Source: an uncultured Desulfovibrio sp. (GTDB lineage Bacteria > Desulfobacterota > Desulfovibrionia > Desulfovibrionales > Desulfovibrionaceae). From it: a stretch of 11,848 bases of DNA. Where the stretch lies: assembly GCA_947177645.1 (NCBI GenBank), contig CAMWVJ010000008.1, forward strand, positions 1 through 11,848. The letters run 5' to 3'. The position numbers and the translations under genes are program-made. Shown one piece after another: positions 1 to 6,237 of this stretch. The notes below the pieces were generated by a model. That model was not told the origin of the DNA. It searched no databases and worked only from the letters and a program-made list of their open reading frames with translations. Every line of letters starts with the position of its first letter. Within the stretch, counting starts at the first letter, position 1.

Positions 1-604
1 CGGCGTACACGGCGCCGGAATTGCCACCAGACAGCCCACTAAAGGGAATGTTGTACAAGCCGCCGGAGCCGCCGTCGATACACAAGACCGAATACCAGCT
101 ATCCACCGGCGCCTCGAAGGTGCCGCTCGCCGTTATCCACTCCTCGCTATTGAGGAGCAGGTTGCCACCCAGCGCCGAGAGCAGGCCGACCTCGTCCACC
201 GTGGTGGTCTTGCCGTCGGGCTGCATGAGGCCCGCCCGGAGGAGCGTGGCGAGGTGTGAGGGCGATTTAATAACCGCGTCCAGGGCCCCCACCAGCGCGG
301 CCTCCACCTTGTCCAGGTCGCCGTCGTCCACCACGCCGGGAGCGTACCGGCGCGCCAAAAATTGCGCGAGGCCCGCGACCACGTGCGAGGCCTGCCGGGC
401 CTGCTTGTTGGCGAGCTTGGCGCGGGCGATGCCGGGCTGGTGGCCAACATTGCGCTGCATGTCCACGGCGTACTCGGCCTGGGAGAGCAGGTCGCGGCCC
501 TCCTGGCCCTGCGCGCAGAAGGGCAAAATCTCGTTTATGGTGTCCTCGGGCGCAACGGTGACGCCCGTGTCCTTGAGGTCGATTATGCTTTGCGCCTGTG
601 CCAT
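1..604 (-). CDS. Phage tail fibre / receptor-binding protein, N-terminal part (3' end off the left edge)
   Basis: The frame is open from an ATG at 604 to the window edge, giving 201 codons with no stop. The start has a good ribosome site, GAGGAG, seven bases upstream. The N-terminus (MAQAQSIIDLKDTG) is followed by a predicted mainly helical region with a basic, Ala-rich stretch (IARAKLANKQARQ). The last visible part, from about residue 130 on, turns Gly/Ser-rich and beta-like (TFEAPVDSWYSVLCIDGGSGG), as in fibre shafts and heads. It is the last visible gene of the operon, directly after the wedge genes, which is where contractile phages usually encode the fibre. Role inferred from position and composition: attaches to the baseplate and recognises the host surface. 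The receptor-binding tip lies outside the window. It could instead be a non-fibre structural protein that adapts fibres to the baseplate. Confidence 0.65.
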   Translation of the reverse strand, partial: MAQAQSIIDLKDTGVTVAPEDTINEILPFCAQGQEGRDLLSQAEYAVDMQRNVGHQPGIARAKLANKQARQASHVVAGLAQFLARRYAPGVVDDGDLDKVEAALVGALDAVIKSPSHLATLLRAGLMQPDGKTTTVDEVGLLSALGGNLLLNSEEWITASGTFEAPVDSWYSVLCIDGGSGGLYNIPFSGLSGGNSGAVYA

Positions 605-676
605 GTCTGGTCTCCTCGGGGGGCACTGTACGGCGCCCTGGCTTGCTGTGGCCCCCCGATATTGTTCGGGGGCTGG
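605..676. promoter_or_regulatory. Intergenic leader of the fibre gene, with hairpin
   Basis: This 72-base gap is unusual in an operon whose genes otherwise mostly touch. It holds repeat copy A (621-672). Within that copy, CCCCCGA (653-659) can pair with TCGGGGG (666-672) around a six-base loop. The fibre ribosome site GAGGAG lies near the left end. The hairpin has no T-run on either side, so it is not a standard intrinsic terminator. It could tune fibre expression or mark a module boundary; both are guesses. Confidence 0.45.
621..672. repeat. Direct repeat copy A (second copy at 4947-4999)
   Basis: It shares with copy B four exact blocks in the same order and orientation: GGGCACTGTAC (621-631), GCTGTGG (645-651), CCCCCCGA (652-659) and GTTCGGGGG (664-672). 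Block spacing differs by only 2-3 bases, and the four bases between the last two blocks differ (TATT here, AAAA in B). Both copies lie just upstream of a minus-strand gene start, the fibre gene here. The blocks were matched by eye. Function unknown. Confidence 0.65.
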
Positions 677-3688: not shown

Positions 3689-4618
3689 CTACCGCACCTG
3701 ATCCAGAGGCAGTCTGGCGGTGTCGTCAATGCCAATGCACACCAGGTCGGCGTACCAGTCATTGCCGCGCGTATCGCCCCTAAACTCCACCTTGAGGATG
3801 CGATAAAAGCCGTCCGCGTCCATGCGCGGGGCCTGCTGCCCGGCCGCCTGCTTGAGCGGCGTCTGCATGGCCTTGACCTGCGCGTTATCGAGCTTGATGC
3901 GGCCGCCCACGGCAAGGCGCGGGTTGAGCAGGCAGCGCACGGTGATGCCGTCCTGCGTCTGCTCCGGGCTGCCCACAAGCCCGGTCTCATGCGTCAGCAC
4001 AACGGCCTCGCCGGGCAAATAGCCTTTGCGCGGCACCATCTGCACCTTGCCGTCCTGGATGCTCCAGTCGGTATCCGTGTCGCGCGCCTCGTCGCGCATG
4101 TACTCCCGCGCCATGCCATACATGACCTTGCCGCGCGGAAGGCCCTGCCCGCCAAGATCAGGCGTATAGCCGGGCTTTGCGCCCTTGGCCTCCATGCTTC
4201 CCTGGCACACGCGCACGCGGTCAGCCGGGCGCGAGCCCGCGGCCAATGTGGTGTTGACCGTGGCAAAATTGTAGGCGCGGTCGCCGTCCGCGGCCAGGAT
4301 GGCCAGCACCGTGTCCACGCCGTTCTCGCGCCACAGGCGCACCTGCCGGATATTGCCGCGGAAAATGGTGCCCAGGTTGCCCTCATAGCCGGCGGCGAGG
4401 TTGACCTGGGTAAACTCGCGGCGGATCTTGGCGGCCGTGTCGTCCGAGAGATTATAGACGTTGATCTCGGCACTGTTGGGCGTCTCTGTGTCGCCCTTCT
4501 TGGTGGCAAAGGTGATGCGCAGGGCCGAGAGCTCCAGCCCCTCGCCGCTGTCCGGGCCCACAATGAGCGAGCAGGCCCTAAGCCATTGCCGCCCCTCCTC
4601 GTGCTCATTCTGGCTCAT
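3689..4618 (-). CDS. Baseplate hub protein (T4 gp27 / late-control-D-like)
   Basis: A 309-residue protein placed between plug and spike, where contractile phages encode the hub ring that carries the spike. Supporting segments are the N-terminal ACSLIVGPDSGEGLELSALRITFATKKGD, then SAEINVYNLSDDTAAKI and the VNLAAGYEGNLGTIFRGNI strand. These are typical of the first tube-like hub domain. The middle holds DTDWSIQDGKVQMVPRKGY and the GEAVVLTHETGLVGSPEQTQDGITVRCLLNPRL block common to phage hub proteins. The C-terminal part has DGFYRILKVEFRGDTRGNDWYADLVC. ATG at 4618 overlaps the plug stop (ATGA), with GGAGG seven bases upstream. The assignment rests on remembered family patterns and synteny. Confidence 0.85.
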   Translation of the reverse strand: MSQNEHEEGRQWLRACSLIVGPDSGEGLELSALRITFATKKGDTETPNSAEINVYNLSDDTAAKIRREFTQVNLAAGYEGNLGTIFRGNIRQVRLWRENGVDTVLAILAADGDRAYNFATVNTTLAAGSRPADRVRVCQGSMEAKGAKPGYTPDLGGQGLPRGKVMYGMAREYMRDEARDTDTDWSIQDGKVQMVPRKGYLPGEAVVLTHETGLVGSPEQTQDGITVRCLLNPRLAVGGRIKLDNAQVKAMQTPLKQAAGQQAPRMDADGFYRILKVEFRGDTRGNDWYADLVCIGIDDTARLPLDQVR

Positions 4619-4944
4619 TGCACGGCCTCCACAGTCTCGAACAGCAGCAGCACGTCCTCGCCCAAGTTGTCCAGCGTGGGCGGCATGTCGCCCGAAAGAT
4701 AGAGCCCCCCGCCAATGCCCAGGTAGGCATAAGGCCGCAGGAGGTCACAACCAGCCACCAGCGGGATGCCCAGGACAAGCGGGGCGAGGTCGTCCGGCGC
4801 GTCGTAGATGTCCAATAGCCAGCCCCCGGGGGCGTCAGGGCAGGTACTCTCCGCCCAGCGCACGGCCAGGCGCAATTCGCGGCCGGCCAGGCTTATGCCG
4901 AAACTTTGCGGCTCGGGTGTCAGGGGTATCTCGTACAGTGCCAT
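4615..4944 (-). CDS. Baseplate plug protein (Pam3 gp18-like, DUF6983)
   Basis: A 109-residue beta-rich protein matching the small plug family named after cyanophage Pam3 gp18. It begins with the typical MALYEIPLTPEPQSFGISLAGRELRLAVRW-type pattern (conserved residues: Tyr4, Pro7, Phe15, Leu19, Trp30). It continues with GGWLLDIYD and LGIPLVAGCDLL, then YLGIGGGLYL and DNLGEDVLLLFE. Plug proteins sit inside the hub/tube lumen in the resting baseplate. Unlike its neighbours, the gene has no clear ribosome site. Its start codon lies in a 25-bp inverted repeat (4933-4957). It is also cut off from the upstream Dit-like gene by the inverted gene at 5049-5672, so its transcription must read through that region or start within it. 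Confidence 0.8.
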   Translation of the reverse strand: MALYEIPLTPEPQSFGISLAGRELRLAVRWAESTCPDAPGGWLLDIYDAPDDLAPLVLGIPLVAGCDLLRPYAYLGIGGGLYLSGDMPPTLDNLGEDVLLLFETVEAVQ

Positions 4945-4957
4945 GCGGGCACTGTAC
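4933..4957. promoter_or_regulatory. 25-bp inverted repeat over the plug start codon
   Basis: Arms GTACAGTGCC (4933-4942) and GGCACTGTAC (4948-4957) are perfect reverse complements, ten bases each, around a five-base spacer. The ATG of the plug gene (4944-4942) is partly in the arm and partly in the spacer. In the mRNA it would form a stable hairpin that hides the start; in DNA it could be an operator. No repressor is visible in the window. The right arm also belongs to repeat copy B. Confidence 0.6.
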
Positions 4958-4999
4958 CAGCGCGCCCCGCTGTGGTATCCCCCCGAAAAAGTTCGGGGG
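4947..4999. repeat. Direct repeat copy B (first copy at 621-672)
   Basis: It contains GGGCACTGTAC (4947-4957), GCTGTGG (4969-4975), CCCCCCGA (4979-4986) and GTTCGGGGG (4991-4999), in the same order as copy A. A three-base TAT insert in copy B lengthens the hairpin stem. Located directly upstream of the plug gene on the minus strand. Confidence 0.65.
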
Positions 5000-5005
5000 G
5001 ATACC
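4974..5005. repeat. Perfect 14-bp stem-loop
   Basis: GGTATCCCCCCGAA (4974-4987) and TTCGGGGGGATACC (4992-5005) are exact reverse complements around the loop AAAG. There is no T-run after the stem in either direction, so it is not a canonical rho-independent terminator. It could stall transcription, protect an RNA end or act as a protein-binding dyad. It lies in the 5' leader of either the plug gene or the cargo gene, depending on where transcripts start. Confidence 0.6.
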
Positions 5006-5048
5006 TCCGACAGCCGCTCATAACCTTTGCACTCAAGAGGGCACGCGC

Positions 5049-5672
5049 ATGTCCTTAGTGGGTAACTATGACCTTCCCCCTGACGTAATCCACAACATTA
5101 CCCAGCGCGGCGTCTTCATCGCCATCGTCTTCGTGCGGCCGCGCTCGCCTCACTGGGAAAAGGTCAACTATCTGATGCAATGCGCTGACGAATACTTTTC
5201 CGACGGGGAAACCACGTTTGGCTTTTTCAAAAAAACGGCCCGCTCGGTGCAGGTCGCCTATGAGGTGCTTTCCTTGAGCAGGGGCTGGAAATCCTGTTAT
5301 GTTTTTATGCAGGGTGTCCCCGTTTTTTCGCTAAAAGATATAAAATGGCTGGAATGTTATATGCGCTCTCTGCGCGCGGATGATTTGCGGGCCTATTGCA
5401 CTATAGTTGACCGCCCGCGCTCTCCCTTTACGCCCGGCCTGGAAGTGGAAAAATATATTTCCCCTTGCCGGTTCATCACCTACGGCTGGTGGTTCAACCC
5501 GGATCACCCCTCGGATTATGTTGCCCAGTTTCAGGCCCAAGCCGTGCGCATGGGCGTGAATCAATGCCCGAATTGCCGGGCCTTCACCATCGAGGAGCTC
5601 AAGAAGTTTGCGGCCATCTATGGCTTCAGCTACCCCCGGAACTCATTTGACCAGCAGCCCGATGGGAAATGA
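5049..5672 (+). CDS. Protein of unknown function, inverted cargo (moron) gene
   Basis: I do not recognise this 207-residue protein. ATG at 5049 is preferred over upstream in-frame starts because GAGGG lies seven bases before it, composition changes there, and any longer form would run antisense through the plug gene. It has no signal peptide or convincing membrane segment; IVFV-type residues near 22-29 look like a beta strand. Seven cysteines (45, 83, 103, 117, 140, 173, 176) include a CPNC pair (173-176) that could bind metal with other residues. It is rich in Trp, Tyr and Phe. Strand, position and lower G+C (119 of 240 bases over 5221-5460) mark it as a late addition to the tail operon. Such genes often alter the lysogen, for example by superinfection exclusion or anti-defence, but nothing here proves a function. 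Confidence 0.8.
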   Translation: MSLVGNYDLPPDVIHNITQRGVFIAIVFVRPRSPHWEKVNYLMQCADEYFSDGETTFGFFKKTARSVQVAYEVLSLSRGWKSCYVFMQGVPVFSLKDIKWLECYMRSLRADDLRAYCTIVDRPRSPFTPGLEVEKYISPCRFITYGWWFNPDHPSDYVAQFQAQAVRMGVNQCPNCRAFTIEELKKFAAIYGFSYPRNSFDQQPDGK

Positions 5673-5697
5673 GGGAGGCAACACCCCCAGCTCATTT
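5667..5697. terminator. Possible stem-loop between convergent genes
   Basis: AAATGAG (5667-5673) and CTCATTT (5691-5697) are exact inverted repeats. Read on the minus strand, the inner GGGGG and CCTCC can also pair (one G-U) around the loop TGTTG, with a two-base bulge. It spans the stops of the cargo gene (5672) and the Dit-like gene (5692). A bidirectional terminator would make sense here, but only three T residues follow, so termination is doubtful. Confidence 0.35.
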
Positions 5698-6237
5698 ACT
5701 CATGTCGCGCCGATAGCCTTTTCCGTGCAAGCCGGCCTGCATGGCGCTTTGCTGGGGCGCGGCCTTGGCCTGCTTTTGCCCCTTGTCCGCGCTGCCCCCG
5801 GTGCGCCCGGCATTTTTGTGCCGCTTTCGCGGCGGCACGCTGGCCGTCTGTGTCTGGACGATGATCACCTCGCGGCACTGCGCGGTCACAAAAAGGGCGT
5901 GCTCGCTGGTGCTGTCCGTAGTGGTGTTTACGGCCTCCACCAGCATGTTGGTGTAGAGGCGCTTGCCGGTGACAATCTCCACGGGCTCGCGCTTGCGCAT
6001 GAGCTCAAGCAGCTTTTCGTAAAGCTCCCGGCTGGCCCCGGGGCCGGCCGTGTCCGAATGGCCCGCGCGCAGGGTCAGGCTGGCGGGCTCGACGTAGGCG
6101 TGGTCATTGATTTTCGCGCCCTGCTCCACGGGGTGCTCGGTAATGGTCACCTTGTCCTCGTGGGCCTCCTCCACCACGACGGCAAATTGCAGGCCGCCCA
6201 GGTTGCGCCCCGTTATCACTGTCCCGCTCTCGCTCAC
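5692..6237 (-). CDS. Dit-like baseplate hub adaptor protein
   Basis: A 181-residue protein that looks like the Dit-like N-terminal domain family, the ring joining the end of the tail tube to the baseplate hub. Residues about 8-130 form the domain: VITGRNLGGLQFAVVVEEAH, then VTITEHPVEQGAKINDHAYV, the helix ASRELYEKLLELM, REPVEIVTGKRLYTNMLV and ALFVTAQCREVIIVQT. Residues 132-181 are a separate low-complexity tail rich in Lys, Arg, Gln, Ala and Gly, probably disordered. The start is GTG at 6237, overlapping the tape-measure stop as GTGA, with AGGGGGC about eight bases upstream. It normally sits between tape measure and plug/hub genes. Here the cargo gene separates it from the plug gene. Confidence 0.82.
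   Translation of the reverse strand: MSESGTVITGRNLGGLQFAVVVEEAHEDKVTITEHPVEQGAKINDHAYVEPASLTLRAGHSDTAGPGASRELYEKLLELMRKREPVEIVTGKRLYTNMLVEAVNTTTDSTSEHALFVTAQCREVIIVQTQTASVPPRKRHKNAGRTGGSADKGQKQAKAAPQQSAMQAGLHGKGYRRDMSK

Follow-up and report, generated by a model that had tools for sequence, protein, structure and literature searches.

It is established that new defence systems can be found at the cargo sites of temperate phages. In phage P22, sieA sits beside mnt, arc, and ant, and its product SieA is a membrane protein. Moron elements, in the available text of PMC4378225, lie between genes that are adjacent in relatives, deviate from them in base composition, stand on the opposite strand, and have by definition a promoter and a terminator of their own. 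The same text describes the plasticity regions of Pseudomonas aeruginosa Mu-like phages, where low-G+C accessory genes occupy fixed places and the cargo of known function is anti-CRISPR. In the antiviral hotspots of P2 and P4, as presented in the accessible part of PMC9122126, different genes, some of them nuclease-like, occupy one fixed locus beside cos, and the cargo has demonstrated anti-phage activity.

Here, we compare with these systems a gene from an uncultured Desulfovibrio sp., encoded in a stretch of 11,848 nucleotides (hereafter the window), where it is inserted in inverse orientation between the genes for a Dit-like tail protein and the baseplate plug. The gene shares the position, composition, and strand of the morons, but no promoter or terminator of its own was detected and its site is inside a baseplate operon. 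The Dit/plug junction resembles the P2/P4 hotspots in gathering different genes, some nuclease-like, at one fixed locus, which is here between Dit and plug instead of beside cos and whose cargo is characterised by family matches only. The likeness to the Mu-like plasticity regions is one of position and composition. SNIPE was set aside as an analogue because the available text of PMC13190303 makes it a GIY-YIG enzyme, and we claim no link to it. Text searches of the literature, within the portions of articles that they reached, returned no description of a cargo site at Dit/plug.

Results

The gene and its surroundings

The window carries a contractile-tail operon on the minus strand, with genes for the sheath (DUF3383), tube (KPP10_Orf10), tape measure, Dit-like protein, plug, hub, spike, wedge, and baseplate J. 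Every neighbouring gene that matches a family lies on this strand and the cargo gene is the only plus-strand gene detected in the window, just as the initial annotation had it. The ribosome site then proposed for the gene is also present (Table 1), and the ATG that follows is backed by a 55% identical homologue (P0002) whose start is in register; the reading frame stays open in the 5' direction to 4461, with no support for coding in that extension. The gene had further been described as poorer in G+C, which holds (53.7% against 61-68.5% across 12 neighbouring genes), although the figure of about 50% was slightly low. Third codon positions follow the same trend (67% against 80-89% in the 12 neighbours), and G+C is below that of the surrounding locus both here and in 12/12 other cargo or family genes that were measured. 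A chance ORF is ruled out by homologues and conserved residues, since the protein matches the family phrog_16260, profile searches retrieve relatives, and two homologues from other genomes (G057 and G068) have a low dN relative to dS.

Between 4600 and 6100 of the window, there are 0 sigma-70-like promoters and four terminator-like sites, against 1.7 in shuffles, none of them at the end of the cargo gene. In three related phages (G066, G074, and L054), hairpins rich in G+C and close to runs rich in T mark the end of the cargo, as judged by eye and, for G066, also by palindrome analysis. The assembly of the host has a completeness of 64% and belongs to the same genus as that of G066.

Table 1. 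Features of the window around the cargo gene
Feature	Position	Strand	Basis or remark
Cargo gene (very probably a moron), phrog_16260 family, 207 aa	5049..5672	+	ORF calls (207 codons, ATG start), family match, alignment
Shine-Dalgarno-like AGAGG, 8 nt 5' of the cargo-gene ATG	5036..5040	+	Read from sequence
Baseplate plug (Pam3_gp18 family, E 9e-20), left border of cargo site	4615..4944	-	Family match
Dit-like tail protein (Dit_like, E 8e-34), right border of cargo site	5692..6237	-	Family match
Segment replaced in closest sister G066	5002..5671		Homology over 4626-5001, then again from 5672, the last base of the gene
Palindrome of CCCCGAA-nnnn-TTCGGGG type, 14-bp arms, 4-bp loop, between plug and cargo	4974..5005		
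Second window copy of the 18-bp palindrome type, upstream of fibre-like frame 2-604 (-)	654..671		
Palindrome covering the start codon of plug, 10-bp arms	4933..4957		Same type in five other sisters

The content of the Dit/plug junction varies between sister phages

We collected junctions by 1) searching 149 related genomes with Dit (6 matched, that of the window included) and with plug (7 matched, likewise); 2) searching 288 genomes of the host family with plug (10 matched); and 3) searching IMG/VR with aligned Dit sequences, which gave 4 loci. One genome (G069) was left out because its plug match covers only 39 residues. We called close sisters the phages whose Dit proteins are approximately 72% identical or more, and after merging identical phages there were six, the window included (L051 and G037 do not differ over 13,998 bases and L054 includes all of L053, so each pair was counted once).

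These six close sisters have five different junction contents and one empty site. The phrog_16260 gene of the window is replaced in four of the five others by 1) a gene for an HSDR_N/HSDR_N_2 protein of 353 aa, together with genes for a ParD-like ribbon-helix-helix protein, a Rha protein, and a 71-aa protein without match (G066); 2) a gene for an HSDR_N protein alone, 79% identical to the former (G074); 3) a gene for a 166-aa SNase with, by eye, a start like that of a signal peptide (G037); or 4) genes for a 168-aa SNase, with a signal-like start and 37% identity to the previous one, and for a zinc-ribbon TM2 protein (L054). In the fifth (L052), it is absent and 70 bp separate the bordering genes. 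Every junction cargo gene stands opposite to the tail genes in all close sisters with cargo. The site is also empty in 6/6 more distant phages (G136, G082, G208, G183, G305, and G307), where no more than 10 bp separate Dit from plug. Hence the earlier view that the gene interrupts two usually neighbouring genes is borne out by L052 and by the distant phages. Between the window and its closest sister G066, which blastn aligns in five pieces at 91-95% identity, the breakpoints at 5001 and 5672 are what a cassette exchange would leave. The initial annotation had read the gene as a moron and had opposed to this reading a conserved structural gene always found in the same place. The exchange or loss of the cargo among sisters and the G066 breakpoints support the former, and the gene is very probably a moron; a conserved structural gene is unlikely, since the junction is variable or empty among the sisters.

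Among the PADLOC models, C3a212 'SNc+LTD' matches both junction SNases (E 1.2e-10 and 1.8e-8). One of the HSDR_N proteins has a weak match to a methyltransferase model (E 0.005), the other has none, and no model matches the zinc-ribbon TM2 protein. From these family assignments, the SNases, the zinc-ribbon TM2 protein, and the HSDR_N-type proteins are candidate phage-exclusion genes too. These cargo genes lie at 8599-9420 in L054, 5482-5982 in L043, 5532-7800 in L042, and 9447-10526 in L044.

A rare protein family with four invariant cysteines

The window protein has a single significant family match, phrog_16260 of PHROGs v4 (E 2.1e-15, 57.7 bits, in two stretches), a family that, like the protein itself, has no described function, and whose model also matches genes of Bordetella and Klebsiella phages. 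A profile of six sequences retrieved 17 proteins at E<=1e-3, the window protein included, among 5.8 billion, and a further search added one more (P0021). Within the class, the family is present in 3/348 genomes, counting that of the window. P0002 is the one near relative of the window protein; with it set apart, identity to the window protein is 17-29%, and the members in the window, G057, and G068 are distant from the rest. We aligned 26 sequences, comprising the proteins from the profile search and those from phage and IMG/VR loci, some of which are near-duplicates of one another. Loci that repeat others were dropped or merged (the L028 protein is the same as that of G057, and L026 and L027 are the contigs of L019 and L020). 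G079 was left out, because its match (E 3e-4) has a stop inside and unrelated longer frames alongside. In all 26 sequences, the residues C103, C117, P139-C140, A163, and C173-P174 are invariant. The homologues of G057 and G068, from genomes of the same genus, differ by a dN of 0.13 and a dS of 1.72, the latter near saturation, which points to purifying selection on the gene in these genomes.

AlphaFold models have a mean pLDDT of 68 for the window protein and of 85 for the homologue P0012. Their N-terminal parts share a beta-alpha-beta-beta-alpha-beta order. This part of the window protein may be ferredoxin-like, and the conserved residues suggest that its C-terminal half is held by a metal site, probably for zinc, made of the four invariant cysteines. 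Structure searches gave no informative match, and no PADLOC model matched family members below E 0.035. The window protein has no signal-like start by eye and is hydrophilic on average (GRAVY -0.27), unlike the membrane protein SieA of P22. Our best guess is a soluble, probably zinc-binding protein.

The family gene in other phages

In Bordetella phage IFTN1 and six IMG/VR contigs (7/7 tested), the family gene lies directly behind an S24-type repressor gene and on the same strand; Peptidase_S24 is above the cut-off in 7/7 of these repressors and a helix-turn-helix is recognised in 5/7. At five loci (window, G057, G068, L009, and L014), the gene is inverted within tail regions. It adjoins genes for Rha and a sheath-like protein in G057 and for tube- and tape-measure-like proteins in G068, the sheath-, tube-, and tape-measure-like genes being recognised by eye. 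In Klebsiella phage ST899-OXA48phi17.1 and in L014, it comes after an Arc-type gene, with Arc and Ant read divergently from it, a place comparable to that of sieA in P22. The inverted reading is not universal, because in L022-L024 the gene is placed between hub and spike on the strand of the baseplate genes. Positions next to repressors and inverted within tail regions are typical of genes expressed in lysogens. In tail regions, the family gene has neighbours that encode small proteins whose starts look signal-like by eye (L013 10038-10679, L022 7587-7964, and L024 7656-8000), the last without a Pfam match.

The Bordetella loci examined were IFTN1, 2, and 3, of five with the full gene, and IFTN4, of three with a remnant. 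In IFTN4, no more than the C-terminal end of the family gene is left, and a different gene precedes it (L025 4001-4261).

Palindromes at the junction and elsewhere

A CCCCGAA-type site is found at the Dit/plug junction in 6/6 close sisters, including the one where it is empty. A looser version of the pattern has two matches in the window against 0.07 expected, and G066, G037, and G074 have four palindromes each in the 55, 34, and 58 kb examined, one of the G037 copies with a mismatch. The palindromes are of either a CCCC or a CCCT type, and the type is uniform within each of these three phages. Palindromes of this type in G066 and G037 are upstream of units read in the sense of the tail genes, i.e., those of the fibre, the plug, a head-type gene, and a lysis-type gene (head and lysis types as judged by eye). 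None were found in the stretches examined of the six distant phages and of the G057 and G068 loci. When up to two mismatches are allowed, L044 has three matches, identical to one another, against 0.8 expected, a number reached in 10/200 shuffles, which makes the case less convincing. Besides the window, the 18-bp palindromes were located in L042, L055, L043, L059, L057, and L044.

From their placement, these palindromes are candidate sites at which a phage regulator would bind where late units begin; this would account for the tolerance of cargo at the junction. Some copies also resemble terminator hairpins. The distinct palindrome at the start of plug may act as an RNA hairpin in the control of translation or as a protein site.

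Discussion

The gene is very probably a moron, a cassette at the Dit/plug cargo site of temperate contractile-tailed phages infecting Desulfovibrio-type hosts. Because it is read opposite to the late genes, it could be expressed from a resident prophage, and from this strand and from the relatives next to repressors, we infer that it would be expressed in lysogens. Its product would act inside the lysogen on other, unrelated phages, by heterotypic exclusion or defence, and would give little protection against its own phage. As possible functions, the initial annotation had named superinfection exclusion, anti-defence, and host modulation; the company that the gene keeps at the junction, i.e., nuclease-like cargo in sister phages, favours an anti-phage activity. 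We regard the chances as evenly balanced that the gene is a moron at a cargo site that protects the lysogen against unrelated phages. A broader statement, that phrog_16260 is an undescribed, lysogen-expressed anti-phage family with a four-cysteine metal site and that the junction is an undescribed defence hotspot of the baseplate operon, where secreted SNases and HSDR_N-type proteins are swapped in, is conceivable from the sequence comparisons, yet we lean slightly towards doubting it as a whole.

Exclusion of the same phage by the family gene is made doubtful by Bordetella avium, whose lysogens, according to the available text of PMC10269795, the original phage can still lyse, albeit at lower efficiency. 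The section on spotting in that text leaves the lysogens unnamed, IFTN3 belongs to the pair of phages that were passaged, and the authors leave lysogens that were not passaged to future tests. IFTN3 carries a family homologue beside its repressor, and by analogy simple self-exclusion by the gene is unlikely.

The frequent place directly 3' of a repressor gene would also be explained if the product aided the establishment or the maintenance of the prophage, e.g., by working with the repressor or by damping induction. This is how the gene is placed in all seven of the non-tail loci tested, and the lysogenization published for B. avium phages in the available part of PMC10269795 is 6.8, 7.1, 57.0, 69.2, and 84.3% for five that carry the full gene, but 2.3 and 3.2% for two with the C-terminal remnant only, a status that we assigned by sequence. 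However, this contrast cannot carry a conclusion, being drawn from just seven phages with other differences, among them an IFTN4 repressor region that differs otherwise and an IFTN3 value measured in another host isolate. Moreover, in the window the gene has no repressor near it, and at the Dit/plug junction it is exchanged for nuclease-like genes and not for regulators alone, so that we find such a role in lysogeny unlikely. Much the same can be said, with a trifle less credit, of a protein that counters CRISPR, restriction, or similar systems, either during infection or for the resident prophage. The accessory sites of P. aeruginosa Mu-like phages do hold low-G+C anti-CRISPR genes (PMC4378225, available text), but the nuclease-like cargo of the sisters fits defence rather than counter-defence, no regulator of the kind associated with anti-CRISPR was seen, and no anti-defence family was matched, in searches that included no library of such families. 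The same source, in its available part, has morons serving their hosts in further ways, and the gene could thus benefit the lysogen in metabolism, stress, or surface properties without being directed at phages; this we rate as rather improbable, given that nuclease-like genes occupy the same junction and that no metabolic or surface domain scored above a cut-off.

A minor virion protein, or one for baseplate assembly, would suit the relative encoded on the strand of the baseplate genes between hub and spike in L022-L024, but the gene is absent or replaced in 5/5 other close sisters and in 6/6 distant phages, it is inverted in the window, and its relatives stand next to repressors in other phages, which leaves this role very improbable. 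That the gene is a passenger without function might be thought from its presence in so few genomes of the class and from the B. avium phage that keeps only a C-terminal remnant. The ratio of dN to dS between G057 and G068, the open frame, and the residues invariant across 26 sequences argue against it, and we consider it the most improbable of all.

Morons at cargo sites of phages are a known kind of element; here the protein family is unexplained, and the literature searches above returned no description of the site. This site lies inside a baseplate operon and is bounded almost to the base by a sister phage. The pairing of an unexplained family with recognisable nuclease-like cargo gives a short list of testable candidates. 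Since the family also follows repressor genes elsewhere, a single function would account for genes from several groups of phages. That sister phages carry other genes at this place, mainly for DNA-cutting enzymes, suggests that the gene is of benefit to the infected cell and not a part of virion construction; it may act by keeping competing phages out.
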